Assembly (NCBI GenBank): GCA_002831545.1
Contig: CP025095.1
Span: forward strand, 2,418,001-2,482,000
Direction of reading: 5' to 3'
DNA length: 64,000 bases
Origin: Streptococcus suis
GTDB taxonomy: Bacteria > Bacillota > Bacilli > Lactobacillales > Streptococcaceae
Under the pieces are notes generated by a model. That model worked only from the letters and a program-made list of their open reading frames with translations, searched no databases and was not told the DNA's origin. Of this stretch, positions 28,804 through 48,813 are shown in pieces (position 1 is the stretch's first letter; each line of letters starts with the position of its first letter). The position numbers and the translations under genes are program-made.

Positions 28804-30316
28804 CTATTTGCACTTTTCTTGAATATTTTCAGCCCATGGTAAATAAGCCTCCAGAACTTCTTTTTTTGCGAGCGTCTCTTCGTTAGGTAAGTGTTCTAGA
28901 AGATAGGTCATATATTTCTCTGCATCAAGACCGTGTCGTTTAGCAGTTTCTAAAAGACTCAAAATGATAGCTGTCGACTTGGCCCCCTCAAAGCTTTGAG
29001 AGAACAGCCAATTTTTACGTCCCATCACCAAGGTCTTCATAGCCCTCTCAGCCATATTGTTGGACAGGACTAAATCGCCATCCGAGAGAACGGTTCGGAA
29101 GGTGGTTTCGTATTTGAGGCTATACTCTATTGCAGTGCCCAATTTGGAACCTGGCAAGACAGCCTGATTGCGACACCAATCAAAGAACTCGTCCATCAAG
29201 GGAGCCAACTCTGTCTGCCGTTTATGCAGCCGCTCCTCAGTAGACAAGTCAGTCCAGTCATTCTCCAAGGCAAACAGGCGGTCGCAATAGGCTAAGCCCT
29301 TGGCTCCTAAAGAAGTCTTGTCTGTCTTCTTAGGAGTCGCCTCAAAGAATTTTCTTCTGACATGAGCCCAACAGCCAACCAGCTGAGCCTTGTCTAACTG
29401 CCGATAGGCTGACCACATGTCACAATGTACATAGCCCGCATAGTCCCCAAGAACTTCCTCCACAACCAAGCCACTCCGTCGTTTGTCATGATGATAGAGG
29501 GTGATGCCCTTTTTCTCATGCTTCCCAGACAAGAAAGTCCAGTAGAAGGTCAACTGGCTATCATTTTCTAAGACCTTGTAGGAGGTTTCATCCGCATGGA
29601 GAATAGGCTGCTCCAACAATTTCTCGTGCAACAGGTTATAAATCGGTTCGAAATAATACTGACTAGACTTGATGTGCCAATTGGCTATTTCCTTGCGACT
29701 GATGGGCAGACCGAGCTTGTTCCAATCCTCTTCCTGACGGTAATTGGGCACCTTCAGATTGAACTTCTGGTGAATGGTGTGGGCAATGATAGAGGCTGAA
29801 CCCAAGCTGTGTGCCAAAGGTGCCTTAGGAATGGGAGCCTTGATAATCTTATCGCTCAGATTCTTCTGACTACATGCCTGACACTTGTATGCGTGTTGAA
29901 CATGGTCAATCCGCTTTAATTGTGCAGGAATGAAGACCAACTCTTGTCGTTGAACAGTTGAACCAATCTCCTTTAATTGACCATGACAGTCTGGACAGGT
30001 ACAATCTTCGCCTTGCAATTCGTGATGCACTATCTCTGGAGTGAATTGGCTGAAAATAGCCTGACGAACTCCCTTAGCTTTCTTGCGTTTATAGGTAATC
30101 GTTTCTGTTTCAACTGGGTAAGTCAGCTTCTTCTTCAGGGAGAATTTCCTCCCCAAACAAGCTCAGCTGACCGGGTTGATACACAACCTTCTCTGATGAT
30201 TTTCCGTAGAGTTTCTGTCTCAGATACTCAATCTGTTCACGAAGGAGGCTCAACTCGTTGGTCATGATTTCAATGGTTTTTGTTAGACTTTCAATCACTT
30301 TATCTTGTGACTCCAT
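28804..30316 (-). pseudogene. tnpC: IS66 transposase tnpC, frameshifted
   Basis: The DDE transposase is split. The N-terminal piece (30110-30316, 68 codons) has the coiled-coil SLTKTIEIMTNELSLLREQI and runs to SLFGEEILPEEEADLPS before a stop. The rest (28804 to about 30120) continues in the +1 frame from VETETITYKRKKAKG and includes the zinc-finger-like CTCPDCHG...CQACSQK, then the DDE region (LHADETSYKV, HCDMWSAYR, NNMAERAMK). One extra C in CTTACCCAGTTG explains the shift, since CTTACCAGTTG would read DLPVET in one frame. Together about 500 codons, the usual IS66 length. A programmed shift is less likely. Confidence 0.85.
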
Positions 30317-30367
30317 GGACTTACCTCCTTCTTTTTATCTCATTATACACAAAGAAAAGCCATGATT

Positions 30368-30718
30368 TCAATAGAAATCACGACTTTTTGAAAGATTTAT
30401 TTTTGGATTGATAGAAAATCCTTTCATGAGCCAGTCCACCTGCTCGGAAGTTAGAGCCTTGACCTCTTCTTCATTGTTTGGCCAGGTCAATTTTCCATTC
30501 TCAAAACGTTTATACAATAACCAAAATCCTTGTCCGTCCCAGTAAAGAGCTTTGAATCGGTCTTTTCGACCTCCGCAGAAGAGATAGACCTGACCTGAAA
30601 AGGGATCCAGATTGAATTGACTTTTGACAAGGTAGGCGAGAGAATCAATCCCTTGACGCATGTCCGTTTTACCGCAAACCAAGTAGACTTGACCTAAATC
30701 ACTGAGTCGGATGGTCAT
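30368..30718 (-). CDS. tnpB: IS66 accessory protein TnpB
   Basis: 116-aa IS66 Orf2. It has the family blocks VYLVCGKTDMRQGIDSLAYL and VYLFCGGRKDRFKALYWDG, then GFWLLYKRFENGKLTWP. It is required with TnpA and TnpC for IS66 transposition; its mechanism is unclear. It overlaps the end of tnpA by 20 bases and lies 51 bases upstream of the tnpC start. Intact. Confidence 0.95.
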   Translation of the reverse strand: MTIRLSDLGQVYLVCGKTDMRQGIDSLAYLVKSQFNLDPFSGQVYLFCGGRKDRFKALYWDGQGFWLLYKRFENGKLTWPNNEEEVKALTSEQVDWLMKGFSINPKINLSKSRDFY

Positions 30719-31983: not shown

Positions 31984-32030
31984 ATCCGTTATCCTTTCAT
32001 CACAGGTCGATCTCCATAAAATATTCGCAA

Positions 32031-32303
32031 CTACGGTTCGTTTGTATGTTTTCTCCGAGAAGCCAGTCTGGAATAGACGAAACTTCCCAAATAGATAATC
32101 ACAATAGAGCCTGTAATCAAGCCAAGAATCGCATTGAAATCTTCTGCATTAGGCAGAACCGTCACAAGTAAGCAAACCAGAAAAGCAACTGTGGCATTCA
32201 ACTCTTCCTGTTTCTTGGAATAGAGATAGAGTTGGTGTAGCACAAGCACATTTAGCGATAGGATAACAAATAATAGATAGATTGGCATTCGTTTTCTCCT
32301 CAT
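32031..32303 (-). CDS. small membrane protein of the bacteriocin locus
   Basis: 90 aa, not recognised. Two to three TMs (IYLLFVILSLNVLVLHQLYL, then TVAFLVCLLVTVLP and GLITGSIVIIYLGSFVY) and a basic C-terminal RLASRRKHTNEP tail. The ATG overlaps the preceding stop (ATGA), so it is translationally coupled to the 61-aa ORF. A methionine five codons later is an alternative start. Small basic membrane proteins in such clusters are often immunity proteins; that is inference. Confidence 0.65.
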   Translation of the reverse strand: MRRKRMPIYLLFVILSLNVLVLHQLYLYSKKQEELNATVAFLVCLLVTVLPNAEDFNAILGLITGSIVIIYLGSFVYSRLASRRKHTNEP

Positions 32304-32485
32304 ATAAAGCTATTTTTCTTCTTTCGTTTCAACAGTTGCATAAGGGCAAGGTTGAAAAATACGACGTAAATCACCAATTCAAGCCTTCCGATATCGGACA
32401 AGCCCAATCGGTAGAGAAAGACTGCCATCAGTATCACTACCAGAATCACGTAGCTTATCTTTCTCCAAAATTTTATTTTTGCCAT
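32300..32485 (-). CDS. small membrane protein, coupled to the 90-aa ORF
   Basis: 61 aa with basic ends (MAKIKFWRK... and LLKRKKKNSFI) and two predicted TMs (ISYVILVVILMAVFLYRLGL and LELVIYVVFFNLALMQL). Ribosome site GGAGGTGCT. Size and topology resemble immunity or PlnX-type small proteins, but no family can be named. It overlaps the next ORF by four bases. Confidence 0.65.
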   Translation of the reverse strand: MAKIKFWRKISYVILVVILMAVFLYRLGLSDIGRLELVIYVVFFNLALMQLLKRKKKNSFI

Positions 32486-32519
32486 AGCACCTCCAAGAAC
32501 AAGAGTCTAAACTGTCGCA

Positions 32520-33266
32520 TTACGAATCTGGAAAATCTTGTCCTTTACCAGCAATGAGTTGCCTACTTAGCCTGTATTCCCTCTGTTTTAATAAGGGAAT
32601 CAGGAAATTGGAAAAAGCTAGAACCCCTACATACAGAGTCAAATGAGAACCCGTCCATAGTAGACAAAATAAGCCTATATATACCAACTGTTCCAGAAGA
32701 ATCAAGCCAACCAAGTAGTTGAGTAGCAGACTCCCTCTAACCAGCTCAACCAGTTTAACCCTTGCGTAGCAGTCAACTAGATATTTCACAACCAATAGAA
32801 AAATCAGAAACAAAGTTGGGACAAAACTCTGGACCAATAGACTGACTAGCATAAGGCCATAACTGATTTTTGTCAGGCTTGATAACTGACCATTTTTGTC
32901 AATTTTTGATTCGAAAGCCTGAACATGTCTCAATTCTTCTTGTAAATCGCTAGGCGATTCCTTAGCTAAGAAGAAACAAATCAAGCACTGCAATACAGCT
33001 ACAGAAAACACGATTCCTAATCTTAGATAGAAAGCCAATTCCCCAAAACTGAGGCACAAGCTCAAAAGGAGGAAGGAATTGACCGTTAACAACAGGCGAA
33101 GCTGTTTCGATTTTGTGTAATAAATCGGTACTGTTGACAGGATATATACAAAAGTCAGACCAGCTAAGACTAAGCCTGATATTTCTAACAGCAGAGTAGA
33201 AAAGGCTCCTAAAATAAGTATCAGAACGATCAACAGAATTTGTAGAATAGTTATTTTTTGAATCAT
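32520..33266 (-). CDS. polytopic membrane protein of the bacteriocin locus
   Basis: 248 aa, not recognised. About seven hydrophobic segments (including ITILQILLIVLILILGAFST, FLLLSLCLSFGELAFY, LRLGIVFSVAVLQCLICFF, LTLYVGVLAFSNFLIPLL). No CPBP/Abi protease motif (EExxxR), no ATPase. A charged cytoplasmic loop lies at about 102-128. Starts two bases after the 28-codon ORF at 33268, so the two are coupled. Confidence 0.65.
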   Translation of the reverse strand: MIQKITILQILLIVLILILGAFSTLLLEISGLVLAGLTFVYILSTVPIYYTKSKQLRLLLTVNSFLLLSLCLSFGELAFYLRLGIVFSVAVLQCLICFFLAKESPSDLQEELRHVQAFESKIDKNGQLSSLTKISYGLMLVSLLVQSFVPTLFLIFLLVVKYLVDCYARVKLVELVRGSLLLNYLVGLILLEQLVYIGLFCLLWTGSHLTLYVGVLAFSNFLIPLLKQREYRLSRQLIAGKGQDFPDS

Positions 33267-33267
33267 C

Positions 33268-33354
33268 TTACTGCCCTATCCCTATAATCTCTTGAAGACA
33301 CCGATTTTTTTCAACTACTCTTTCAATAAAATGATCTAGCAATCCCATTTCCAT
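33268..33354 (-). CDS. 28-codon ORF with strong ribosome site
   Basis: Starts MEMGLLDHFIERVVEK and ends IIGIGQ. It is preceded by AAAAGGAGAGCCT, one of the best ribosome sites in the locus, and its stop is one base from the next ATG. Amphipathic, no signal peptide, no glycine-pair leader. It could be a short peptide product, a coupling leader or a chance ORF. The ribosome site and coupling favour translation. Confidence 0.5.
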   Translation of the reverse strand: MEMGLLDHFIERVVEKNRCLQEIIGIGQ

Positions 33355-33476
33355 AGGCTCTCCTTTTCTCTATGACGTTACAATAAACGAATAGCTTATC
33401 TCTCTGTTAAATACACAACTGCATCAACAGCTACTGCACTAGCAATTACAGCAAGCGTCCTTTCTACAAGTGTATA

Positions 33477-33659
33477 TCATTTTTTCCACATCAATTTCGC
33501 ATAGAACATCGTGGCTAGAATCAAAAGAAAGAAGAGAATATTTATCCCTATAATCCATTGTTTTACCTCTTCGCTCACATGATCATAAGCTAAAAATGTA
33601 AATGATGAGAGAAGCAGACAGCCAAAAAAGACAAGTACAAAGATTTTTTCAATTTTCAT
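33477..33659 (-). CDS. small two-TM membrane protein
   Basis: 60 aa: MKIEKIFVLVFFGCLLLSSF as TM1, then WIIGINILFFLLILATMFYA as TM2, ending KLMWKK. Small, basic-ended, in a bacteriocin locus: immunity-like. Oddity: after its TGA the same frame stays open for 26 more codons (33396-33476), reading an Ala/Val-rich stretch (LAVIASAVAVDAVVYL). This suggests either an older longer gene or a remnant of another ORF. Confidence 0.6.
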   Translation of the reverse strand: MKIEKIFVLVFFGCLLLSSFTFLAYDHVSEEVKQWIIGINILFFLLILATMFYAKLMWKK

Positions 33660-33707
33660 CGTTTCATTACCTCACAACGTGGAAGAGCCTGGATAGAAAA
33701 GCAATTC

Positions 33708-34652
33708 TCATTTCAATACATCCAAAATAATTGGAATCTCCGAAACAGCCAAGGATAGATCCAACTTATTCTCAAGTTCGATGTTCCTATATATTTCATC
33801 TACCAGCAAATAATAATACGGACGCTCCCCAGTCCACGAATCCAGTATCTTTTTATAAATCCTATATTCTTCCTTATTTTCCCTCTGCATGTATAGATTT
33901 ATCTTGATGGTATCTAAGAAACTATAGTGTTCCCTACTATTTTCTATGTTTTCAAAATAAGACTTTTCCAAACTTTCTATCGCTTCAACTTCTTCCCGGT
34001 TCAACCTACTTTTTATCAAAATCAGGTAACAAAGCAACTGATAAACCAAGTCCTTGTTACCAAGAACGCTCTCATCCCAAAATTCTTTCAGATGAATTTG
34101 ATCTTCTTTTCTGACTAAAGCTGTCAGAATTCTTGATTTGTACCGATAAAAATTTCGATACTCCTTCAAAAAAAATCCAGTGTGAAAGAAAGTTAGGAGG
34201 GAAAATGGAAGTAACGGGAGTAAACTTCCCCTAAAATCTAGAAGATGGACACCTAAAATAAATAGGAGGGACTGAAAAGTAAAAAATATGGTTGTATAAA
34301 CTTGAAAATATCCCCTATATTTCGTAGAACCTCTGTCTTCTAAATAAATGGCAGGAGAAAGACCGAAAAATTGTAAGAACAAGAAACAGGGTATATGTAC
34401 ATTATCAAAAGATAAATAGGTGCAGAAATAGCTATAAATAATCTTCTGGTTTGTCAAAAATGAAGCCAGCATAAAAGATAAGGTAGAAATGAGTTGGTTG
34501 ATAAATAAAAAGATTGGCGTACCAACTAGAAAAAACACCAGAGTAAATAATAACAAACCATCCCCATATCTGCCGATAAAAATCGGCGGAATACAAACAA
34601 GAGAGAATATCAGTACTCCTACTAATAGCACGAAATAATGCCGCAGTTTCAT
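33708..34652 (-). CDS. membrane protein of the bacteriocin locus
   Basis: 314 aa, function unknown. Hydrophobic segments at about 5-25, 32-65, 88-104, 118-138 and 143-162, then a soluble helical C-terminal half (about 170-314). No zinc-protease HExxH, no nucleotide-binding motif. Topology echoes the 300-aa product at 31081. Coupled to a 17-codon ORF just upstream. Candidate accessory, immunity or transport factor; unresolved. Confidence 0.65.
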   Translation of the reverse strand: MKLRHYFVLLVGVLIFSLVCIPPIFIGRYGDGLLLFTLVFFLVGTPIFLFINQLISTLSFMLASFLTNQKIIYSYFCTYLSFDNVHIPCFLFLQFFGLSPAIYLEDRGSTKYRGYFQVYTTIFFTFQSLLFILGVHLLDFRGSLLPLLPFSLLTFFHTGFFLKEYRNFYRYKSRILTALVRKEDQIHLKEFWDESVLGNKDLVYQLLCYLILIKSRLNREEVEAIESLEKSYFENIENSREHYSFLDTIKINLYMQRENKEEYRIYKKILDSWTGERPYYYLLVDEIYRNIELENKLDLSLAVSEIPIILDVLK

Positions 34653-34656
34653 CTTC

Positions 34657-34710
34657 TTAATTCCATTCTAAATGTTTGATATCATTATGGGCAATAACGA
34701 GGCTAAACAT
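34657..34710 (-). CDS. 17-codon ORF preceding the 314-aa membrane protein
   Basis: MFSLVIAHNDIKHLEWN with the ribosome site GCGAGGTGAGACAA. Its stop lies four bases before the next ATG. The ribosome-site bases CGAGG can pair with CCTCG inside the ORF, so it may act as a leader peptide or translation switch. Only the ribosome site supports it. Confidence 0.35.
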   Translation of the reverse strand: MFSLVIAHNDIKHLEWN

Positions 34711-34746
34711 TTGTCTCACCTCGCTAAACTGTCTAATTTACAATCA

Positions 34747-35058
34747 TCAATAAAACAGACGCCAGCCGTAAAGTGCAGCCCCCAATCCAACAGCTGCTAC
34801 CAACCCAGCTATTCCAGTTATCGCAAGAACTGTAGTAGAAATCGAGGCAACTTTAGCCATTAAAACAGGGTAGCTTGCTACAATTACTTGACCAGCATAA
34901 TTGGTCAATCCCGACTCTCTTAACGCAAATCTCAAGGCAGCAGTTCTTGCCCACAGACCCTGAATATTTTTTCTGAAATTATTCCAATCACCCCCGTCAA
35001 GATACATCATTTCTTCTTGTTCAAGAGCCACATAATTATTTGGTAGTACTAATTCCAT
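34747..35058 (-). CDS. class II bacteriocin precursor 2 (double-glycine leader)
   Basis: 103 aa. A 23-residue leader ends EEMMYLDGG, cut after Gly-Gly by a C39 peptidase such as the one at 37823. The mature part is about 80 residues, beginning DWNNFRKNIQGLW and ending ALYGWRLFY. It has a charged amphipathic N-terminal half and a hydrophobic Gly/Ala-rich C-terminal half (ITGIAGLVAAVGLGAALYG) with small-residue repeats. No cysteine, so not a lantibiotic. The leader is 20/23 identical to precursor 1, while the mature parts differ, as in two-peptide bacteriocins or in paired independent ones. It is longer than most class IIb peptides. Confidence 0.85.
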   Translation of the reverse strand: MELVLPNNYVALEQEEMMYLDGGDWNNFRKNIQGLWARTAALRFALRESGLTNYAGQVIVASYPVLMAKVASISTTVLAITGIAGLVAAVGLGAALYGWRLFY

Positions 35059-35250
35059 AAAAATTCTCCTTTAAAAATCATGGTTAGACGCAATCCTCTA
35101 ACTGGATATAATCAACGTTTCTCATTCTTTACCTAGATAGCAGAAGGACCTTTCATCTACACTGTTGGGATTTATCTACTGTAAAGATGTAAAACCATTA
35201 TTGTTTAAAACTCAACAAGTCTAGAATCCAATCCAAATAGGTTTCTTTAA
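34995..35250. repeat. direct repeat copy B: leader, upstream region and HlyD tail
   Basis: About 255 bases nearly identical to 35758-36014 (copy A). It covers the leader-coding region, the ribosome site AAAGGAGAATTTTT, the untranslated upstream region and the last codons of the HlyD-type gene. It shows that the precursor cassette was duplicated with its upstream DNA. Confidence 0.9.
35198..35245 (-). pseudogene. remnant of the HlyD-type gene 3' end
   Basis: Reads ETYLDWILDLLSFKQ and a stop, one residue different from the end of the intact 35963-37366 product (ETYLDWILELLSFKQ). The frame continues upstream for about 17 codons of unrelated sequence before a stop. No start, so not a gene. Confidence 0.85.
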
Positions 35251-35333
35251 TATTTTTTATAAAGATAGTACCATTAGATTTATCTTCATAAATAAATTAT
35301 TGACAAATAATGTTACAACCTTTTAATACAAAG

Positions 35334-35507
35334 CTATTTTACTTTTATCAATAAGTAATAAGAAATTAGCATACAAATTTGTGCTAATGTAACAATAAGT
35401 GCAACCCCCGATAACTGATTAAACTCATTTTGCGAAAAATATATTGTACCGCATAACAAAAGAACAATACTGCCTTCTATGAATAAGAACAAAGGTAAAT
35501 ATTTCAT
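35334..35507 (-). CDS. 57-aa two-TM protein, candidate immunity protein
   Basis: MKYLPLFLFIEGSIVLLLCG forms TM1 and GVALIVTLAQICMLISYYLL TM2, ending IKVK. It starts six bases after precursor 1 with ribosome site GGGAAG. A small basic-ended membrane protein immediately downstream of a bacteriocin precursor is the classical place of an immunity gene. No family match is claimed. Confidence 0.65.
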   Translation of the reverse strand: MKYLPLFLFIEGSIVLLLCGTIYFSQNEFNQLSGVALIVTLAQICMLISYYLLIKVK

Positions 35508-35513
35508 AAATGA

Positions 35514-35822
35514 TTACTTCCCAGTTACTTTTGCATAGAAAGCGTTTTCAAATCCGGTCATAAAAATACCTCCCCAAACATTTCCAACAACTAGTGCCAC
35601 CGCCCGAACTTGCCATTTGATTTTTTGATATTGCGAATTTCTTAACCCTGCATAGTATACTCTAGTACCTGCAGCTAAGCCAGCTCCATAAGCTGCTCCA
35701 CCCGCAGCTACGGCAGCTGATATTATCCCTAATACAGTAGCTGTGGCTATTTCACCCCCATCAAGGTACATCATTTCTTCTTCTTCAAGAACTACATAAT
35801 TATTCGGCATTACTAATTCCAT
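35514..35822 (-). CDS. class II bacteriocin precursor 1 (double-glycine leader)
   Basis: 102 aa. The leader of 23 residues begins MELVMPNNYVVLEEEEMMY and ends LDGG. The mature part, about 79 residues, starts EIATATVLGIISAAVAAGGA with GxxxG-like spacing (GAAYGAGLAAG) and continues to a basic amphipathic stretch (QYQKIKWQVRAVALVVG). No cysteines. The leader sequence and the neighbouring C39 exporter define the class; the target spectrum is unknown. Ribosome site AAAGGAGAATTTTT. Followed at once by the 57-aa immunity candidate. Confidence 0.85.
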   Translation of the reverse strand: MELVMPNNYVVLEEEEMMYLDGGEIATATVLGIISAAVAAGGAAYGAGLAAGTRVYYAGLRNSQYQKIKWQVRAVALVVGNVWGGIFMTGFENAFYAKVTGK

Positions 35823-36014
35823 AAAAATTCTCCTTTAAAAAATCATAGTTAGACACAATCCTCTAACTGGATATAATCAACGTTTCTCATTCTTTACCTA
35901 GATAGCAGAAGGACCTTTCATCCATACTGTTGGAATTTATCTACTGTAAAGATGTAAAACCACTATTGTTTAAAACTCAACAATTCTAGAATCCAATCCA
36001 AATAGGTTTCATTA
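35758..36014. repeat. direct repeat copy A
   Basis: The partner of 34995-35250, here with the intact HlyD-type gene end. Differences are scattered single bases. Confidence 0.9.
35847..35868. promoter_or_regulatory. hairpin upstream of the precursor 1 ribosome site
   Basis: AGTTAGA-CACAATCC-TCTAACT, 7-bp perfect stem, conserved with one change in copy B (35083-35104). It lies about 25 bases upstream of the start and could be an operator or a translation-control hairpin. Confidence 0.45.
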
Positions 36015-37366
36015 TCATAAACGATACGAGCCTCCACTGGCATATCTTTTTGTAAAACTACAATTTCTTCATCTTTTTTTAGAGTCAATTCTTCAAGAGC
36101 AACAACCACCTTGTAAAGACTAACATTACCATTCTGAGTTTCCTGAGTAATCGTTCCAGAGTCAATCTGAGTTACAGCACCCTTTAAGGTACCAAATTTC
36201 TGACTGTTTACACCCGTAATAGCTATGTCTACCTCTGCACCAACAGCAACACGGGAAATATCTGTCGCAAGAACAAAAGCTTCTATATAGGCTTCTCTAT
36301 CACTACCAGCAATTTCAGCAATAGTCTGGTTTTGTTGGACAGACATACCTTGCTTGAGCGGAGTAACATAATGTAGGGTTCCATCACTAGAGGCAGAAAC
36401 AGTTAGCCCTCTATCCTGACCTATGGAAATCCCTAAATTGGCTTCTAACTCTGTTATGCTTTTATTATTGGCCGCCCTTGCTGTACCTAACTCACTGATT
36501 AACTGAGCATAGGTGTTGTAAGCTTGAGAAGTAGGGTCGTTGTAAGAACGCTCCATCTCCCTAATACTAGACTGTAAGGACTCTATTTCCGTCCCCTTTC
36601 CTTGTATAGAAGAAGTGGTCGTTTCAATTTTTGTTTTGACTTCTGATATTTTTGTATTTAGTTGCTCCAGCTGAATGCTATTAGAAGAAGTGTCAGCGGA
36701 TGATGAACTGGTCTCACTATCGGAATTCGTTTCTGCTGTCTCTTGAACAGAGAGAGTTGCTAATTCTGCCTCTAGATTAGCAAGTTGCGATTGGTAACTA
36801 GACAAGTCCGTTTCTAATTGACTTTTCTCCGCCACTAATTTATTCAACTTAGTGTACTCTTCCTGCAACTTAGCATATTGACTACCATCATTATAGTTTT
36901 CTGAGCTAAGTTGAGATAGATAATATTCTACCTTCCCGTAATACTCCTGCTCTTCACCTGAATTTGCCATATAATTAACTTTTTCATTCAGAGACTGTTC
37001 ATACTTTTGAAAGAGACTCTCTTTAGCTTTGAGCTTGTCCAATTGTTTAGTTAAAGATTCAGTCTGAAGTCCTTCTTGTCCACTAGATAGAGAAAGAATA
37101 ACCTCACCAGCTTTTACACTATCCCCTTCCTTTTTATGAAGTGTCACAATCTTCCCATTGCTCAGAGCAGATACATACTCTGTTCCTGTTATCACGGAAG
37201 TCCCCCTAGCTTTGACTATGTAATTTTTAGGCAAATAGGCAGATACTGCAAAAGCTATAATCAAAGTAGCTAGTGTACTAAAGATTAGGATAAACGCGTA
37301 GGCTGGAGGACGCTTATCGAAGAAGATTCTAGAATAACGAAGTTCAGATTTGTTATATAGTTTCAT
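35963..37366 (-). CDS. HlyD/ComB-type bacteriocin export accessory protein
   Basis: 467 aa. A single N-terminal TM (YAFILIFSTLATLIIAFAVS, about 23-42), then a barrel-lipoyl segment (GTEYVSALSNGKIVTLHKKEGDSVKAGEVI), a long coiled coil (about 100-300) with a Ser-rich linker (SDSETSSSSADTSSNS), and the second half of the lipoyl/barrel (SDGTLHYVTPLKQGMSVQ). This is the MesE/ComB architecture that couples C39 exporters to the cell surface. It starts with a four-base ATGA overlap with the 155-aa gene. Its 3' end is duplicated at 35198-35245. Confidence 0.88.
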   Translation of the reverse strand: MKLYNKSELRYSRIFFDKRPPAYAFILIFSTLATLIIAFAVSAYLPKNYIVKARGTSVITGTEYVSALSNGKIVTLHKKEGDSVKAGEVILSLSSGQEGLQTESLTKQLDKLKAKESLFQKYEQSLNEKVNYMANSGEEQEYYGKVEYYLSQLSSENYNDGSQYAKLQEEYTKLNKLVAEKSQLETDLSSYQSQLANLEAELATLSVQETAETNSDSETSSSSADTSSNSIQLEQLNTKISEVKTKIETTTSSIQGKGTEIESLQSSIREMERSYNDPTSQAYNTYAQLISELGTARAANNKSITELEANLGISIGQDRGLTVSASSDGTLHYVTPLKQGMSVQQNQTIAEIAGSDREAYIEAFVLATDISRVAVGAEVDIAITGVNSQKFGTLKGAVTQIDSGTITQETQNGNVSLYKVVVALEELTLKKDEEIVVLQKDMPVEARIVYDNETYLDWILELLSFKQ

Positions 37367-37830
37367 AAGCTAATAATCGGTCTAAAAATATCCACCGTCA
37401 TGGTTTCATTATTTGTATTGACATAGACGGTGTAAATAATGCCATTTGTTTCCAAATCATTTTCATAGAAATGTAAATCTAGTTTAGAATATGCATATTG
37501 CAAATACTCTGGACTATCTTCAAATCGTACATAGACACAATGTGGACAAACAATTTCTTCATAAACAGTATAAAACTTATCATACTGGCGAAAATCATGA
37601 GCTTGGACATACAAATCATAGTCTACAGTAATAGTCCCATCTTCATGAAGAATAGTTCCACTATTTTTTACAATCAAAGGGCCAAACATTTGCACTTTCA
37701 GTAATTGTAAGTGCTGATAAAACTTATCTATTTCTTGTTCCAAGTCTTCAAACTGAAGGCTACTTAGCTTCTTACAAATCACTTTTTTCAAAACTAATTT
37801 CTTGTTTTCTAATACTTCTAACTTACTCAT
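37363..37830 (-). CDS. 155-aa protein between exporter and HlyD gene, effector-binding-like
   Basis: Soluble, no signal or TM. Starts MSKLEVLENKKLVLKKVICK (site GAGGTGG; ten upstream in-frame codons rejected). The strand-rich body, with paired segments YEEIVCPHCVYVRFEDSPE and GIIYTVYVNTNNETMTVDIF, suggests a GyrI-like/effector-binding fold, but no family is certain. It contains CPHC, which could bind metal or be a redox pair. Overlaps both neighbours, so it is tightly built into the export operon. A role in immunity, maturation or export control is open. Confidence 0.6.
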   Translation of the reverse strand: MSKLEVLENKKLVLKKVICKKLSSLQFEDLEQEIDKFYQHLQLLKVQMFGPLIVKNSGTILHEDGTITVDYDLYVQAHDFRQYDKFYTVYEEIVCPHCVYVRFEDSPEYLQYAYSKLDLHFYENDLETNGIIYTVYVNTNNETMTVDIFRPIISL

Positions 37831-40042
37831 ATACCACCTCTTCTGACCAGCTAGTAGCAACTGTTTTTTCTTGCTTATCTAGTTGAATGCTTTGTAAACC
37901 AACCATTGTTGCATAGCGGCCACCCAACTTCATCAACTCATCATGCGTCCCATATTCTGCAATTTTCCCGTCTTCCAAAAAACAGATTTTATCACAACGT
38001 AGAATCGTTGATAATCTGTGGGCCACTACAACTGTCGTCTTGCCAATAATTTTTTCAAATATTAAATTTTGGATAATCTGTTCACTAAAGGAATCTAGAT
38101 TGGAAGTTGCTTCATCAAAAATATAAAGATCTGCTTTACTAAGAAGAGCTCGGGCAATAGCAAGACGTTGTTTTTCTCCTCCTGAGAAATTCTGGCCACC
38201 TTCTTCAACAAAAGAACCATATCGGTTTTGTAATTTTTGAATTGTATCATGAATCCCTACTATTCGGCATACACGTATCATATCCTCATAGCTAGCTTCT
38301 GGATTTCCTATCTTTAAATTATCAATTATAGTCCCTGAAAAGAGCTCGACTGTTTGAGGGATATAAGCTATTTTTTTCCGTAATTCTCCATAATCCAAAT
38401 CCCCTAAGTCATACTCACCAAACTTTATTTGACCTTCAATAGGCTGAATGAAATGAAGAAGAAGTCGTACAAGAGTACTCTTTCCTGCTCCGCTTTCACC
38501 TACAAAAGCGATTTTTTCACCTTGGTTGATAGTCAAACTAAAATCGCGAATAATAGGGGGTCTAGACCCATATGCAAAGGTAACATTTTTGAAAGCAATA
38601 TCTTCCAATAGCGAAAAATTATAGATACTATTCCCTACTTGACTATCTTCGCGCTCAACATCCATCAATTCTTGAAGTCGGCTAACAGCAACCTGAACTT
38701 CCTGAAAAGTAAGTTGGAGACCAACCAAATTCTGAACAGGCTCAGTAAAATACTGACTCAAGGTCTGAAAAACAAGAAGATCACCAATTGTCATCTTGTT
38801 ATCAATAATAAATAAGGCACCTACTCCCATAAAAATCAAATTCCCTAGAGTTCCAGCTATAGAAGAAATTGTAGATTGAATATTTTGTAAAACACCTTCT
38901 TTATAGCCAATTTCTAAGGTGTGAACAAAATTCTCTTCCAATTTATCCAAACGTTGTCGTTCATCATGCTGTGATTTTATGGTATCTATGTTACGAATAG
39001 ATTCTATCAATTGCGAATTAAGCATAGAGTTTGCTTCCATCTGCTCATTATTAATCTTCTTATAAGGTTTCTTGAAGCAATAAATTAACACGATATTCAC
39101 AATCACCATCATAACCAATATTAGAAATAAAGTGGGGTTGAGGTGCCATAAAACAAAGGCACTTATCAGTGATAGGCTAATATCCATAACTAACGAAATA
39201 GAAACCGAGGTAAAAACATTCTTTATCGTCATGGCATCTTGAAACCGTGTCAAGACATCACCCACCCTTCTGCTACCGAAAAAACTATAAGGTAGGTGAA
39301 TAATATGGTCATAATAGCCCAGGAGCACAGGAATATCAATTTTTCTTGATAGGAAGAGCAAAATATGTTGCCTAAAAGCAGATAAGAGACTCTGCACTAA
39401 AGAAACGATGCCAAAAACAATCAAGAATAAGTATAAGCTGTTCTTTAATCCAAAGGGAATAATCTCATCCATAATAACTTTGGAAAAAAGACTAGACAAA
39501 ATACCAACGATACTTAGCAAGAATGATGCTAAGATGATTGTCCCCACAAGTCCTTTCTGTGTTAATATCAGAGCTGAAAATAAGTCAAATAGTCCTTTGC
39601 CTTTCATGTTTCCTTTTTCAAACTCGCTATTTGGAACCATGAAAATGGCTATTCCTTGATAAACTTCCTCAAGTTCTGTAATTGAAAGCATATCCAGTCC
39701 TTTTGCTGGATCAGCTACCAAATAATTACCATCTTTCTTTATCTTATGAATCACTATAAAATGATTCTGCCCCAGACTATTCCGTATTTGTAGTATAGCT
39801 GGAAAGCTAATATCTCCAGTTAAGTCATCCAAGGATACTCGAACTGCCTTTACGGTAAAATTTAACTTTTCAAGACCAGAAACAATTCCGTGAACGGTCG
39901 TTCCATACATATCTGTTCCAATAATTTCCCGAATTTTCATTATTGAAAGTTCTTTTTTATAGGTCAATAATACAGTGGAGACAACAGCTGCTGCACAATC
40001 TGACTGGTCATGTTGCAAAGTGCAAGCATATTTTTTAAACAT
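37823..40042 (-). CDS. bacteriocin ABC exporter with C39 peptidase domain
   Basis: 739-aa fusion that cuts the double-glycine leader and exports the peptide. The N-terminal C39 peptidase has the catalytic Cys in QHDQSDCAAAVV, His in NHFIVIHKI and Asp in VADPAKG (about 1-150). The six-TM ABC domain follows (about 165-450). The ATPase has Walker A GESGAGKST, signature FSGGEKQRLAIARALL, Walker B LYIFDEATSNLD and the H-loop AHRLST. Intact. It follows the 40-codon ORF after 16 bases with site GGGCGGAG. The two precursors downstream are the expected substrates. Confidence 0.95.
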   Translation of the reverse strand: MFKKYACTLQHDQSDCAAAVVSTVLLTYKKELSIMKIREIIGTDMYGTTVHGIVSGLEKLNFTVKAVRVSLDDLTGDISFPAILQIRNSLGQNHFIVIHKIKKDGNYLVADPAKGLDMLSITELEEVYQGIAIFMVPNSEFEKGNMKGKGLFDLFSALILTQKGLVGTIILASFLLSIVGILSSLFSKVIMDEIIPFGLKNSLYLFLIVFGIVSLVQSLLSAFRQHILLFLSRKIDIPVLLGYYDHIIHLPYSFFGSRRVGDVLTRFQDAMTIKNVFTSVSISLVMDISLSLISAFVLWHLNPTLFLILVMMVIVNIVLIYCFKKPYKKINNEQMEANSMLNSQLIESIRNIDTIKSQHDERQRLDKLEENFVHTLEIGYKEGVLQNIQSTISSIAGTLGNLIFMGVGALFIIDNKMTIGDLLVFQTLSQYFTEPVQNLVGLQLTFQEVQVAVSRLQELMDVEREDSQVGNSIYNFSLLEDIAFKNVTFAYGSRPPIIRDFSLTINQGEKIAFVGESGAGKSTLVRLLLHFIQPIEGQIKFGEYDLGDLDYGELRKKIAYIPQTVELFSGTIIDNLKIGNPEASYEDMIRVCRIVGIHDTIQKLQNRYGSFVEEGGQNFSGGEKQRLAIARALLSKADLYIFDEATSNLDSFSEQIIQNLIFEKIIGKTTVVVAHRLSTILRCDKICFLEDGKIAEYGTHDELMKLGGRYATMVGLQSIQLDKQEKTVATSWSEEVVYE

Positions 40043-40058
40043 ATATACTCCGCCCTAA

Positions 40059-40181
40059 CTATTTTGCATAGATAAATATTTCTTCTCTATCTACACCAAA
40101 AACTCTCGGCAATTGTGGAACTCTAATTAAAATAACCGCTAGTAATCCCACCACCAAAACACTCTTAACTATTCTTTTCAT
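40059..40181 (-). CDS. 40-codon secreted-peptide-like ORF, possible signal peptide of the regulator
   Basis: Basic N-terminus MKRIVK, hydrophobic core SVLVVGLLAVILI, then a 21-residue tail RVPQLPRVFGVDREEIFIYA and Lys. Ribosome site GAAAGGGG. It is the first gene after the strong promoter at 40205 and lies downstream of, and in the same orientation as, a PlcR-like regulator. This is the layout of plcR-papR, where PapR is a secreted, re-imported signalling peptide. It does not look like a bacteriocin (no GG leader). A membrane-inserted small protein is the alternative. Confidence 0.55.
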   Translation of the reverse strand: MKRIVKSVLVVGLLAVILIRVPQLPRVFGVDREEIFIYAK

Positions 40182-40204
40182 TTTGTAACCCCTTTCTTTT
40201 CTAT

Positions 40205-40233
40205 AGTATAACCGTTTCGTTACCTATTGTCAA
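40205..40233 (-). promoter_or_regulatory. strong promoter of the bacteriocin operon
   Basis: Minus strand: perfect -35 TTGACA (40228-40233), 17-base spacer, -10 TATACT (40205-40210). The spacer contains GGTAACG-AAA-CGGTTA, a loose dyad that could be a regulator site. Confidence 0.85.
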
Positions 40234-40289
40234 TGTTTTTTGATATTTTTCTAACAAAATTTATTATTGTTATATTTTTGATATAAAAA

Positions 40290-40315
40290 GAAGCCTGCCC
40301 CTCTGGAGCAAGCTC
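40290..40315 (-). terminator. terminator of the PlcR-like regulator gene
   Basis: On the minus strand GAGCTTGCTCC-AGA-GGGGCAGGCTTC with one bulge and G-U pairs, then TTTTTAT. It overlaps the stop codon and separates regulator and operon transcripts. Confidence 0.8.
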
Positions 40316-41183
40316 AATCTGTATAGGTTTCTTTGAGGTATTTTTCTATTTTCAAAGCAATAGCATCAATGCCTGCTAACTCGTAAAGAAGTCGTGATAG
40401 TTCATAGCGTTTTTTGACCAGTTGCTTATCCGCAAAGTCTTCTGTCACATTTCCTAAGTCACAATAAAAATCTGCCAAGAAATGGATAGGATAGATTGAC
40501 TTGAATTCCTCAATGCAGGCTGTAACCAGCTCAATTCCCTTTTCCAACTGATTTGTCAACCATAGGTAGCGGATGTAGTTGGACTGAATACTGAAGTAAG
40601 CATCTATATCCACCAATAAATCCAACTTATTTTTATCAATCTTTTCGATTACCTCACTATAGAATTGCTCTGCCTCAGCATTCTTCTCATCTCGAATCAA
40701 TAGAATCAATAAACTATTGTACAGATAGAGGTAGCCTCTCCTATTCTCCCCAACTCGTTCCAGCAACTCCCTCAATTTCTGAATAGCATCTTCTCGCCTT
40801 GCTTCCAAATTCTCTGCTAAAACAGCCTCCACCCATTCCAAATAAACTTGGTCTGGAAAGGTCAGATGAGATAGGGTGCCCTTTTCCCTTTCATATAGAA
40901 AGCCCAAAGCCTCATAATCTCTTTGCATAAGACAGTTTTTGGCAAGTTTTCTAAAGTGTTTCAGGTCAGAGACAATTTCGCTTTCCTCTTCATCAAAAAA
41001 ATAGTCCATTCTGACTTGGAGTTTTTTAGCAAGGGCATGAAGCAAGTCTGCACCAGGCATGTAGGTTCCCTTCTCAATCCGGCTAATCTGCCCCTGATCA
41101 CAGACCCCTTCTGCCAACTCCTTCTGCGACCAACCCAATTCTTTTCTTCTATTTTTTAACCTTGTTGCTAGTAGAACTTTCAT
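40314..41183 (-). CDS. PlcR/TprA-like peptide-sensing transcriptional regulator (RRNPP superfamily)
   Basis: 289 aa. An N-terminal XRE helix-turn-helix (RLKNRRKELGWSQKELAEGV, then DQGQISRIEKGTYMPGADLL) is followed by an all-helical C-terminal region of tetratricopeptide-like repeats (about 70-289). The HTH core CDQGQISRIEKG resembles PlcR. Such proteins bind short imported peptides through the repeats and then activate or derepress promoters. Placed directly upstream of the 40-codon ORF and bacteriocin operon, it is the natural controller. It is not ComR-like. Peptide specificity is inference. Confidence 0.8.
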   Translation of the reverse strand: MKVLLATRLKNRRKELGWSQKELAEGVCDQGQISRIEKGTYMPGADLLHALAKKLQVRMDYFFDEEESEIVSDLKHFRKLAKNCLMQRDYEALGFLYEREKGTLSHLTFPDQVYLEWVEAVLAENLEARREDAIQKLRELLERVGENRRGYLYLYNSLLILLIRDEKNAEAEQFYSEVIEKIDKNKLDLLVDIDAYFSIQSNYIRYLWLTNQLEKGIELVTACIEEFKSIYPIHFLADFYCDLGNVTEDFADKQLVKKRYELSRLLYELAGIDAIALKIEKYLKETYTD

Positions 41184-41246
41184 ATCAACCTCTCAGAATC
41201 CAATCTATATTTATTATAACAGGTTAAGCCCTAGCAGACAAACAAC

Positions 41247-41272
41247 AAAAAACCTCTCATCAAGAGAGGCTT
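41247..41272 (-). terminator. purR terminator
   Basis: On the minus strand CCTCTC-TTGAT-GAGAGG flanked by AAG and TTTTTTGTTGTTTG, right after the purR stop. Confidence 0.85.
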
Positions 41273-41277
41273 AACGA

Positions 41278-42090
41278 TTAATCAAAAATATTTCCCAACT
41301 CTACATCGACTCGGTTTTCCTTGACATTGATGTCGGTCACAGCGAGTAGAGACTTGTAGTTAGCTACGCTACGGTCCCCTTTTTGGTTTTCTGCAAAGAC
41401 AGCCACGCCTACCAAGGTTGAGTCAAACTCAGACAAGAGGCTAATCATACCATTGATGGTGCCACCATTTTTCAAGAAGTCATCGACGATTAAGACACGG
41501 CTTCCTGCCTTCAAACTACGCTTAGACAGGAACATCTTTTCGATACGGTCGCTAGATCCTGACACATAGTTGACAGAAACGGTTGAACCTTCTGTGATTT
41601 TCAAATCACGACGCACAATAACAAACGGTACATTAAGGACATTGGCAACAGCATTGGCCAAAGGGACCCCCTTAGTCGCAACTGTCATGACCGCATCAAT
41701 CTTTTCTTCCTTAAAAGCATTAGCAATAATACGGCCAACATTTTTCAAAATATGCGGTGTAGACAGCAAGTCAGATGAATAGATATAACCGCCTGGCAAG
41801 ATACGATTACTTTCGGCCATCTGATCACGAAGGGCCTGTGCAATTTCGACAGACTCTGCCTTAGAGATTGATGGAGTAAAAACAACTCCTCCACTGGCAC
41901 CAGTAATGGTTTCAATATGCCCGATAGAGCTTTCCTCAAAAGCCTTTTTAATGATGGCAATATCCTCTGAGATAGATGACTTGGCAGATTCATACTTTTC
42001 CGCAAAGGTATTCAAACTAGTTAATTCATAAGGGTGGTTGATGAGGTAATTGGAAATGACAACCATACGCTCACTTCTTCTTAATTTCAT
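41278..42090 (-). CDS. purR: purine operon repressor/regulator PurR
   Basis: Gram-positive PurR, which binds PurBoxes and senses PRPP. 270 aa: an N-terminal winged helix (MKLRRSERMVVISNYLINHP), then a phosphoribosyltransferase-like domain with the PRPP motif VLIVDDFLKNGGTINGM (about 197-213) and ASGGVVFTP. It is alone in its transcript between terminators. A possible target in this window is the purA promoter. Confidence 0.95.
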   Translation of the reverse strand: MKLRRSERMVVISNYLINHPYELTSLNTFAEKYESAKSSISEDIAIIKKAFEESSIGHIETITGASGGVVFTPSISKAESVEIAQALRDQMAESNRILPGGYIYSSDLLSTPHILKNVGRIIANAFKEEKIDAVMTVATKGVPLANAVANVLNVPFVIVRRDLKITEGSTVSVNYVSGSSDRIEKMFLSKRSLKAGSRVLIVDDFLKNGGTINGMISLLSEFDSTLVGVAVFAENQKGDRSVANYKSLLAVTDINVKENRVDVELGNIFD

Positions 42091-42136
42091 ATTGTTCTCC
42101 TTTTTGGCTTTTTCCTATTATAGCACATAAAAACAC

Positions 42137-42174
42137 AAAAAGCGAACCTTTTTTCTTGAAAAAGTTCGCTTTTT
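42137..42174. terminator. bidirectional terminator between the phosphotransferase gene and purR
   Basis: AAAAAGCGAAC (42137-42147) and GTTCGCTTTTT (42164-42174) with inner CTTTTT/AAAAA pairing, giving a nearly continuous 16-bp stem. Confidence 0.85.
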
Positions 42175-42179
42175 CGTAT

Positions 42180-43058
42180 TTAGCTATAAACTTGTAGATA
42201 CCACGTTGGAATCCAGCGAGTAAAGTCCGCATACCATTCTGAGATGGTGGCCGCCTGTTCCTGCATCAAGGGGATTTGGAGGGGATCTACGCGCTCTGCC
42301 CAAGAAAGAGCGCCTAGACTATTTACTGTTACATAAAGAGCCATGAGTCTCCAAAATTCCTCTGGAATAGCGCCTTCAAAATAGGCATCTACCTGACCAC
42401 GCGCAAAGGCTGGAGACAAATCTGCCGTGAAAATCAAACGGTTGAATTCTTCCCAGGGGTCTCCTATGTCGTAGCGATCAAAGTCTAATATTTTCAGTTT
42501 CCCATCCGCACCCAGTAGGAAGTTACCTGTGTGAAAATCTCCATGATGGTAGGCAATTGGTCTTCCTGCCAGCAAGTGACGGTTGGCTTGAACAAAGTCT
42601 ATCATAGCAGAACCATTTGGGTAGGAATGACTAGCTGCTTGGTAGGCAGCTAATTTATTATCAATCTTAGCCTGATAAAAACTGTTCCAGTCCCGTTGAC
42701 TTTGGTCAATCGGTAGGGCATGCAAGGTTCGCAAAAACTGCCCTGACTGACAGCCCAAATCATATAAGACAGAATCAGATAGGCTAGAAGCCACTTCATT
42801 CATATCCTGACCTTCCATCCATTCATAAAGGGTGTAGACTGACTCCTCATCCGCCCAAAAACTTAGTGGCTCTGCCACAGGCAAGTCTTGTCCAAACAAG
42901 CTTTGAACCAATCGAAATTCTGCTTGCTTAGCCTCATAGGATGTCTGCTCTACTATTCTCATAAGACAAAAGCGACCGTCATCGAGCCGGACCTTGAACT
43001 TTTGGTCCGTGGACCAGCCTTTTGTGAGAGGCTCACGTGATAAAACCTTAACTGCCAT
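42180..43058 (-). CDS. aminoglycoside phosphotransferase-family kinase
   Basis: 292-aa protein-kinase-like small-molecule kinase. The catalytic loop is AYHHGDFHTGNFLLG (Brenner motif HGDxHxxN, about 170-184) and the metal-binding DFD motif is ILDFDRYDIGDPWEEF. The substrate is unknown. Families with this core phosphorylate choline, fructosamine, homoserine or antibiotics, and resistance should not be assumed. The start shares its first base with the stop of yhaM (TGATG), so it is translationally coupled. Confidence 0.85.
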   Translation of the reverse strand: MAVKVLSREPLTKGWSTDQKFKVRLDDGRFCLMRIVEQTSYEAKQAEFRLVQSLFGQDLPVAEPLSFWADEESVYTLYEWMEGQDMNEVASSLSDSVLYDLGCQSGQFLRTLHALPIDQSQRDWNSFYQAKIDNKLAAYQAASHSYPNGSAMIDFVQANRHLLAGRPIAYHHGDFHTGNFLLGADGKLKILDFDRYDIGDPWEEFNRLIFTADLSPAFARGQVDAYFEGAIPEEFWRLMALYVTVNSLGALSWAERVDPLQIPLMQEQAATISEWYADFTRWIPTWYLQVYS

Positions 43059-47559: not shown

Positions 47560-48813
47560 CTAGTCTCTTTTGCGTGATGTGGCAGCTAATCCTAGACCTG
47601 AAAGACCGGACAAGACGCCCCCTAAGACTAGGAGCATAGAGCTGCTATCACCTGTTTTTGGCAAGGTTTTGGCAACAGGTTGTGATACTTCCTCTGGTTT
47701 AACAGCAGGAGTGCTTAGAGCGGACTTGTCTACCGTTTTCTTATCTGTTGGTGTCACTGCTTGAACCTTGTCAGCTGTCTGGTCAGTTAAGGACGAGGCA
47801 TCTGTTAGCTGTTCAACTGGTTTGTCTGTCGGAGTGTCAACTGGAACTTCAGCTGGAGTTTCAACTGGTTGCTCAACTGGAACTTCAGCAGGTTTTTCAA
47901 CGGGTTGTTCAACTGGCTGGTCAGCTGGTTGTTCGGTTGGTTGTTCAGCTGGCTGGTCGGCTGGTTGTTCAGTTGGTTGTTCAGCTGGCTGGTCAGCTGG
48001 TTTGTCTGTTGGAGTTTCCGCAGGTTTTTCAGTTGGTTGTTCAACTGGCTGTTCGGCTGGTTGTTCAACTGGTTGTTCAGTTGGTTGTTCAGTTGGTTGT
48101 TCGACTGGGGTTTCTGGAGCGGCGTCCTTAATCATCCAGAATTGAACCCATGCAAAACCAGCAGAGTTTAGTTGCTTTAAGGCATTATCATAGGTAAGTT
48201 CATAGGTTGGACTAGTGTATTGGTCCAACTTGTATCCATCAACTTTGGGTGTTTCTACCGTCTTTGTTTCTCCCGGGTTGATGGTAACATAGTAATGAGA
48301 TAATGGACCATCAACTTCTGAAATTGCACCTATTAGTACCGAAATTGGTTTTTCAACTGGCTGGTCAGCTGGGGTTGCAACTGGTTGTTCAGTTGGTTGT
48401 TCAGTTGGAGTGTCAACTGGTTTGTCGACTGGAGCATAGATCAAGATGACGTCCACAAACCTACTGCCAACAGTATCTTCATATCGAGCGCTTGGGCTAC
48501 CCTGAAGTAATCTCTCTCCATTTCTATTGGAAAGGAGGTATTTACCTTCATAAACATACCCATCAACCGCCGGAACTACTATGGATCTACTCTCTCCAGG
48601 ACTAACCCAAAACTCCTCCAGGTCAAATGCAGCAAACACCAATTCGCCATTAAAGTAATATCCCGCATGAACGGCAACTCTTGACTGTATCTCCTCCGCA
48701 TGAACAACTGTGGAGTTGTTCACCAAATTGCCACCCACCTGAGCAACCACACCACTCAAAACAAGGGTTGAAGTAAGAGCAAGGCCCCATTTAGCAAATT
48801 TTTTTACCTGCAT
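47560..48813 (-). CDS. LPKTG-anchored surface protein with Pro/Gln/Glu repeats
   Basis: 417 aa. Signal peptide (WGLALTSTLVLSGVVAQVGG, cut near VVHAEE), then module 1 (about 45-130) and module 2 (about 158-230). The modules share a pattern around SPGESRSIVVPAVDGY and NPGETKTVETPKVDGY, MucBP-like in style. A wall-spanning region of tandem PTEQPVEQPAEQP units follows (about 234-330), then LPKTG, a hydrophobic stretch and KRD. The ligand is unknown. Possibly phase-varied by the adjacent recombinase system. It lies in the accessory block between rsgA and rsmA. Confidence 0.88.
   Translation of the reverse strand: MQVKKFAKWGLALTSTLVLSGVVAQVGGNLVNNSTVVHAEEIQSRVAVHAGYYFNGELVFAAFDLEEFWVSPGESRSIVVPAVDGYVYEGKYLLSNRNGERLLQGSPSARYEDTVGSRFVDVILIYAPVDKPVDTPTEQPTEQPVATPADQPVEKPISVLIGAISEVDGPLSHYYVTINPGETKTVETPKVDGYKLDQYTSPTYELTYDNALKQLNSAGFAWVQFWMIKDAAPETPVEQPTEQPTEQPVEQPAEQPVEQPTEKPAETPTDKPADQPAEQPTEQPADQPAEQPTEQPADQPVEQPVEKPAEVPVEQPVETPAEVPVDTPTDKPVEQLTDASSLTDQTADKVQAVTPTDKKTVDKSALSTPAVKPEEVSQPVAKTLPKTGDSSSMLLVLGGVLSGLSGLGLAATSRKRD

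Follow-up and report, generated by a model that had tools for sequence, protein, structure and literature searches.

A PlcR-family regulator and a candidate TprA-type pheromone gene in front of a Streptococcus suis bacteriocin operon

What is the role of a 40-codon open reading frame (ORF) that lies between a regulator gene and a bacteriocin operon in Streptococcus suis? The question arises at positions 40059 to 41183 of a 64,000-nucleotide stretch of contig CP025095.1 (hereafter the window, in whose numbering all positions are given), where a first-pass annotation had seen a regulator-peptide pair that mirrors plcR-papR. Profile matches, fold, groove residues and gene neighbourhoods support such a pair well, and we consider it very probable that the locus is a streptococcal peptide pheromone system of the TprA type, within the PlcR family, whose peptide would induce both the pheromone gene and the bacteriocin operon.

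The upstream gene (41183..40314, minus strand) had been described as a PlcR-like XRE/TPR regulator, and this description is borne out. The protein starts with an XRE helix-turn-helix (HTH; residues ~5-62), in which HTH_3 (PF01381) scores 52.3 bits against a cut-off of 23, and continues with a TPR-type domain (~67-289). A profile search matches it to PlcR at E 2.4e-22, and comparison by profile, Foldseek and VIA-align revealed a C-terminal TPR domain with the PlcR fold as well as a full-length sequence match to PlcR. PlcR is the closest solved relative: among 15 solved sequences, at E 0.001 or better, it alone matched lengthwise while the other matches were HTH-sized, and no full-length relation to Rgg or ComR was found in this set. 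Rgg2 and ComR were weaker fold matches. Comparison with the PlcR, TprA and Rgg groups places the regulator in the streptococcal TprA family and not with Rgg/ComR. Its best named match (97%) is from S. suis, and two named S. suis contigs carry it at 94-95%. In the groove, N156 and N202 align with N159 and N201 of PlcR, which we take to be the asparagines that hold the peptide backbone; for ComR N208 such a role is stated in the accessible text of PMC5131891. Together, the data indicate that the regulator belongs to the PlcR family (RRNPP, PlcR/TprA).

As expected of the PlcR/TprA family, a precursor gene with a predicted export signal adjoins the regulator gene. Its ATG is preceded by AAAGGGG, and its stop codon lies 16 nt before the start, at 40042, of an ABC transporter that passes the cut-off of TIGR01193; the 40-codon ORF heads the bacteriocin operon, as annotated. 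The basic start, the hydrophobic core and the 21-residue tail (40181..40059) are as annotated, but the tail (RVPQLPRVFGVDREEIFIYAK) is of mixed composition rather than polar. By analogy with PhrA, VDREEIFIYAK, or a peptide close to it, is the probable mature form. The terminator after the regulator gene and the TTGACA-17-TATACT promoter were both found where the annotation had placed them. Two terminator-like sites of this kind occur within 1.5 kb, where shuffled sequence gives 0.6 on average. The promoter matches the consensus at 11 of 12 positions, and within 32000-40300 only one other such site occurs, on the opposite strand, among 31 promoter-like sites overall, a total not above chance (27.0). 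Both hexamers are preserved in loci L002, L003 and L004.

Relatives of the regulator at E 1e-10 are present in 109 of 284 genomes of the genus, and 78 rows, mostly best matches rather than all, make up the tree. A small hydrophobic precursor, whose tail shows the pattern G/E/S, hydrophobic residue, D/N/E, adjoins the regulator in 46 of the 78 rows, 41 in tandem downstream and 5 divergent; the divergent ones end in GLD(V/L)GKAD, the canonical TprA/PhrA arrangement. A fixed motif that admits the window tail found an ORF of this kind in 40 of 77 downstream windows as against 1 of 1454 control windows, although the rows of the former count are not independent because several are near-identical. 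Labelled rows within one clade have the same type of tail. The window clade, of 5 rows and with support 100, is joined to the GIDTG clade by a node of support 93 that carries a long-branch warning, and other TprA-family clades carry GIDPG, GIDTG or GLDVGKAD tails. A hidden Markov model (HMM) built from 23 precursors outside the window clade gave the window peptide a score of 15.2, which was reached or exceeded by 14 of the 611 small hydrophobic ORFs that the loci contain. Each of the 14 belongs to a locus with such a regulator (13 have the tail, one is frame-broken), these being mostly rows of the model read from another start or their close kin, and the remaining 597 ORFs scored at most 12.9 (a PhrA), the best unrelated one 12.4.

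Within the window's own lineage, six further protein clusters of the 40-codon ORF were found at 85-93% identity, two of them labelled S. suis by their sources and one identical to the peptide of the S. suis YS56 contig. The seven alleles vary at positions 6, 8, 11, 15, 20, 25, 33-36 and 39 and share an invariant GVDR (29-32). Comparison of the window gene with that of YS56 revealed four codon changes, small numbers, of which the one at 12 is synonymous and those at 34, 36 and 39 are non-synonymous. Tails in S. suis read DREEIFIYAK, DREEIFIYTK, DREDIYIYTK, DRGERYIYTK or DREERVIYTK. A co-change of tail and groove could not be claimed: position 160 is I in both the window clade and the GIDTG clade and varies among close proteins.

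The same bacteriocin operon recurs in other genomes. A 165-aa operon protein, used as marker, was found in 10 of 284 genomes (G000, G252, G256, G180, G234, G014, G109, G220, G222 and G155), of which G000, G252 and G256 are of the window type (with one stop in the G256 match) and G155 is a broken remnant. The transporter is 79-86% identical in the six non-suis copies compared, while regulator identity is 62% in G180, 42% in G234, G014, G109 and G220, and 33% in G222. G234, G014 and G109 have a GIDTG precursor in the space from regulator to transporter; in G220 a GIDTG precursor follows the regulator and another cluster, lactococcin-like by eye, precedes the transporter. G222 has a divergently oriented TprA of canonical type (54-57% to the PhrA-linked clade), and its precursor, which ends in SGVDVGKAD, lies 28 nt before the transporter. 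With the G155 remnant set aside, 7 of 9 operons thus hold such a precursor between regulator and transporter. It is an even bet that regulator and pheromone gene form an exchangeable cassette before one conserved bacteriocin operon, with the S. suis tail splitting into variants. At least two TprA-family cassettes are clearly different, the tandem window/GIDTG group and the divergent canonical-type TprA of G222 with GVDVGKAD; between the window and GIDTG types, tails and cassettes may have diverged where they stand. The reverse situation, in which TprA is conserved and the bacteriocin clusters next to it are exchanged, is described for pneumococcus in the text available of PMC6120550, and G222 could equally be read as an operon exchanged beside TprA.

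Several observations weigh against a pheromone system as proposed here. In 330 of 2000 trials the window peptide scores as well or better with residues 21-40 shuffled, which means that the signal part and the layout account for most of the HMM score. The tail core of PapR/TprA-like precursors is G-[IVF]-[DN]-[PT]-G; the window tail retains G-V-D and goes on with R-E, without the P-G of most relatives. No PlcR box (consensus TATGNANNNNTNCATA) was present in any of 26 promoters (170 nt each), the two S. suis alleles included, and no well-kept operator was found in these two alleles. In G234, G014 and G109 a gap of 270-412 nt separates precursor and transporter, which may or may not be co-transcribed there. 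By the filters used, 32 of the 78 tree regulators are without an adjacent precursor. These include G075/L080, where a peptide lies ~2 kb away, L047, with only 229 nt of downstream sequence, and the frame-broken L089. Two further members of this group are S. suis YS161, which lacks most of the peptide gene, and G180, the nearest relative outside S. suis, which retains regulator and operon and has only a decayed slot (start codon lost, deletion in the hydrophobic core).

YS161 (L004/L031) has a natural deletion that starts at codon 4 of the peptide gene and ends within the second bacteriocin gene, sparing the regulator, the 314-aa gene and later genes, so that the strain resembles an immunity-only one. 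The regulators of G180 and of P0010 (named S. ruminantium) are 62-63% and 62% identical to that of the window. In P0010, 7 of 58 conserved columns are changed, the most among 37 rows, all of them in the TPR part and including N156D and D238A, whereas most other precursor-less regulators retain N156 and N202. This fits relaxed selection on the peptide groove after signal loss, in a single lineage. L034, L037, L038 and L040 form a regulator clade without a precursor by the filters used; L034 and L037, the two that were read, preserve the family promoter layout with a different kind of gene next.

How does the pair relate to known systems? In Bacillus, PlcR is an activator. The PlcR/PapR system of the Bacillus cereus group (PDB 3u3w, 2qfc) shares with the window the fold, the groove asparagines and the tandem order of regulator and peptide, whereas the window lacks a PlcR box, has a tail unlike LPFEF and precedes a bacteriocin operon rather than a virulence regulon. 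TprA/PhrA of S. pneumoniae, as far as the accessible text of PMC5436883, PMC6753895 and PMC7595303 goes, likewise has a PlcR-family regulator, an exported precursor (predicted in the window), a GxD tail and control of an antimicrobial-peptide operon (putative in the window). It differs in that phrA is divergent from tprA, the peptide is the heptapeptide LDVGKAD and the operon encodes a lantibiotic; rows of this type are 34-36% identical to the window regulator, and the window, tandem and with tail GVDREEIFIYAK, is not TprA/PhrA proper, which has a divergent phrA and a tail of LDVGKAD or near it. Tandem PapR/TprA-like pairs are reported for the salivarius group (S. thermophilus JIM8232) in the available part of PMC12445099, with a PlcR-family regulator, a precursor of like layout (45 aa), a GIDPGPAN-type tail and a C-terminal peptide found in concentrated supernatant. 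The window differs from these by its tail, by its regulator clade (37-42% identity to the DPGPAN-tail rows) and by heading a bacteriocin operon with a C39 transporter. PlcR-type regulators are also noted beside bacteriocin clusters in pneumococcus (PMC6120550, in part). On the evidence of sequence comparison, the window pair falls within the streptococcal TprA family, as one of its divergent members. A novel peptide class was rejected, since precursors with this layout and GxD-like tails accompany the regulator's relatives, and the suggestion of a new signalling pair unlike PhrA did not survive the comparison with the TprA-family clades and the S. thermophilus pairs. Among the matches listed, titles and abstract openings held no description of the S. 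suis locus, many subscription papers lying outside this coverage. A term search of the S. suis quorum-sensing review PMC9782415 found TprA, RRNPP and Rgg absent from the main text and PlcR only in a reference title. A PlcR homologue, which may or may not be the window gene, is said in part of PMC3118785 to be absent in avirulent strains.

By homology to TprA/PhrA and PapR/PlcR, the 40-residue precursor would be exported via its N-terminal signal and trimmed to a C-terminal peptide, which at high density would re-enter through the oligopeptide permease, bind the TPR groove of the neighbouring regulator and alter its hold on the 40205-40233 promoter. Pheromone gene and bacteriocin operon would then be induced together in a positive loop. 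The sign of regulation is the point of which we are least sure. Release of repression by the peptide, as in TprA/PhrA, is slightly favoured over activation because the promoter is near consensus. That the regulator is instead a PlcR-type activator, so that the peptide is required for transcription, has somewhat less than an even chance: the closest solved relative is PlcR, the tandem order is that of plcR-papR, and in a related clade an ATAC-N5-7-GTAT palindrome precedes the -35, with 6 of 26 promoters carrying it as against 0.19 on average and at most 3 after shuffling. Against activation stand the closeness of the window promoter to the consensus and the behaviour of TprA, the streptococcal relative that has been studied, which represses until its own peptide relieves this (PMC6753895, PMC7595303, as far as accessible). 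The palindrome, about the size of a PlcR box, is a candidate operator. It lies 103-109 nt before the peptide start in the four carriers with DPGPAN tails (L026, L042, L048 and L050) and, measured from an assumed start, in the solo loci L034 and L037; at about this distance the window shows no more than a weak counterpart, and L003 lacks one. A GTAAC-N6-GTTAT inverted repeat between -35 and -10, read off the alignment without a chance control, is present in both S. suis alleles and not preserved in G180.

A ligand encoded elsewhere, with the local ORF idle, is improbable. Genome G000 does hold a second PlcR-like regulator (C1:1919582-1920439, L095) with a tandem precursor MKRIVTMICLLLAIVMVIFPVKRTVTRTSDGFDPGVINIMKK, whose tail is GFDPGVINIMKK; a 111-aa protein and an ABC ATPase come next (by eye), and cross-talk with this second pair is possible. 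PhrA2 is reported to act on TprA (PMC5436883, in part), and regulators without an adjacent precursor occur. Against this stand the seven alleles of the local ORF, with changes clustered at 33-36 and 39 of the tail, a weak argument because a protein database shows only open frames. Slighter still is the chance that the ORF encodes a small membrane protein or bacteriocin accessory (immunity, exporter helper), as its first place in the operon, 16 nt before the transporter, and strong hydrophobic core would allow, since PhrA-type or GIDTG-type precursors precede the same operon elsewhere and go with this regulator family before lactococcin 972 and lanthipeptide-enzyme operons.

The features of the locus are collected in Table 1. 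Both bacteriocin-like peptides share the leader MELV(M/L)PNNYV.LE.EEMMYLDGG; the first has sub-cut-off matches to the class II bacteriocin families Bacteriocin_IIc and lactobin/cerein, and the second matches no class II family even below cut-off. Control by competence was rejected: a ComX-box pattern with up to 2 mismatches occurs at 16 sites in the 64 kb (10.1 by chance), none at the 40205 promoter. No Rfam family reached its gathering score within 32000-43000. By eye, IS66-like transposase-type ORFs (28804-30718) lie at the far end of the bacteriocin region, and a surface protein with an LPKTG anchor and a long EQP.EQP repeat stretch at 47560-48813. By Pfam, what follows other regulator-peptide members is a lactococcin-972 operon in L041, a lantibiotic dehydratase cluster in L042 and L085, and a RamC/LanC-type enzyme in L049; L046, L052 and L061 resemble these by eye only, and Pfam at E 0.001 gave no match for the small L061 protein (lactococcin-like by eye) and two more of ten neighbours.

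Table 1. Features of the regulator, peptide and bacteriocin region (window positions)
Feature	Position	Strand	Basis
Promoter-like site of regulator, TTGTCT-17-TATAAT with TG	41213..41241	-	consensus scan only
PlcR/TprA-like regulator, 289 aa	40314..41183	-	ORF list, Pfam, PlcR profile match, AlphaFold2 model, Foldseek, VIA-align
Intrinsic terminator-like stem-loop, 11 pairs, begins at regulator stop codon	40291..40315	-	sequence scan
Promoter of peptide gene and operon, TTGACA-17-TATACT	40205..40233	-	consensus scan
Peptide precursor gene, 40 codons (MKRIVKSVLVVGLLAVILIRVPQLPRVFGVDREEIFIYAK): basic start, hydrophobic core, tail	40059..40181	-	ORF list, alignments, HMM
Predicted mature signal region, VDREEIFIYAK	40062..40094	-	position of PhrA LDVGKAD in alignment; PMC5436883 (in part)
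C39-peptidase bacteriocin ABC transporter, 739 aa	37823..40042	-	TIGR01193 555.9 bits (cut-off 523.85); Pfam
165-aa operon protein (marker), no Pfam or NCBIfam match at E 0.1	37363..37860	-	
HlyD-type secretion accessory protein	35963..37366	-	HlyD_3 58.1 bits (cut-off 22.2)
Bacteriocin-like peptide 1, double-glycine leader (MELVMPNNYVVLEEEEMMYLDGG)	35514..35822	-	ORF list
57-aa hydrophobic protein, possible immunity	35334..35507	-	position and composition only
Bacteriocin-like peptide 2, same leader type	34747..35058	-	ORF list; leader recurs in related operons
314-aa membrane protein, possible immunity	33708..34652	-	retained in strain without preceding genes

The locus offers a candidate pheromone, receptor and promoter for bacteriocin control in pig-associated S. 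suis, and the genome comparison provides a natural series, with the pair intact, the tail changed, the cassette replaced by another or the signal decayed, for the study of peptide discrimination by PlcR-type regulators. The change of cassette before one bacteriocin operon is the part with most to offer: if cassette exchange is true, one and the same weapon would answer to different private signals, and these would decide which cells trigger the bacteriocin of which others.
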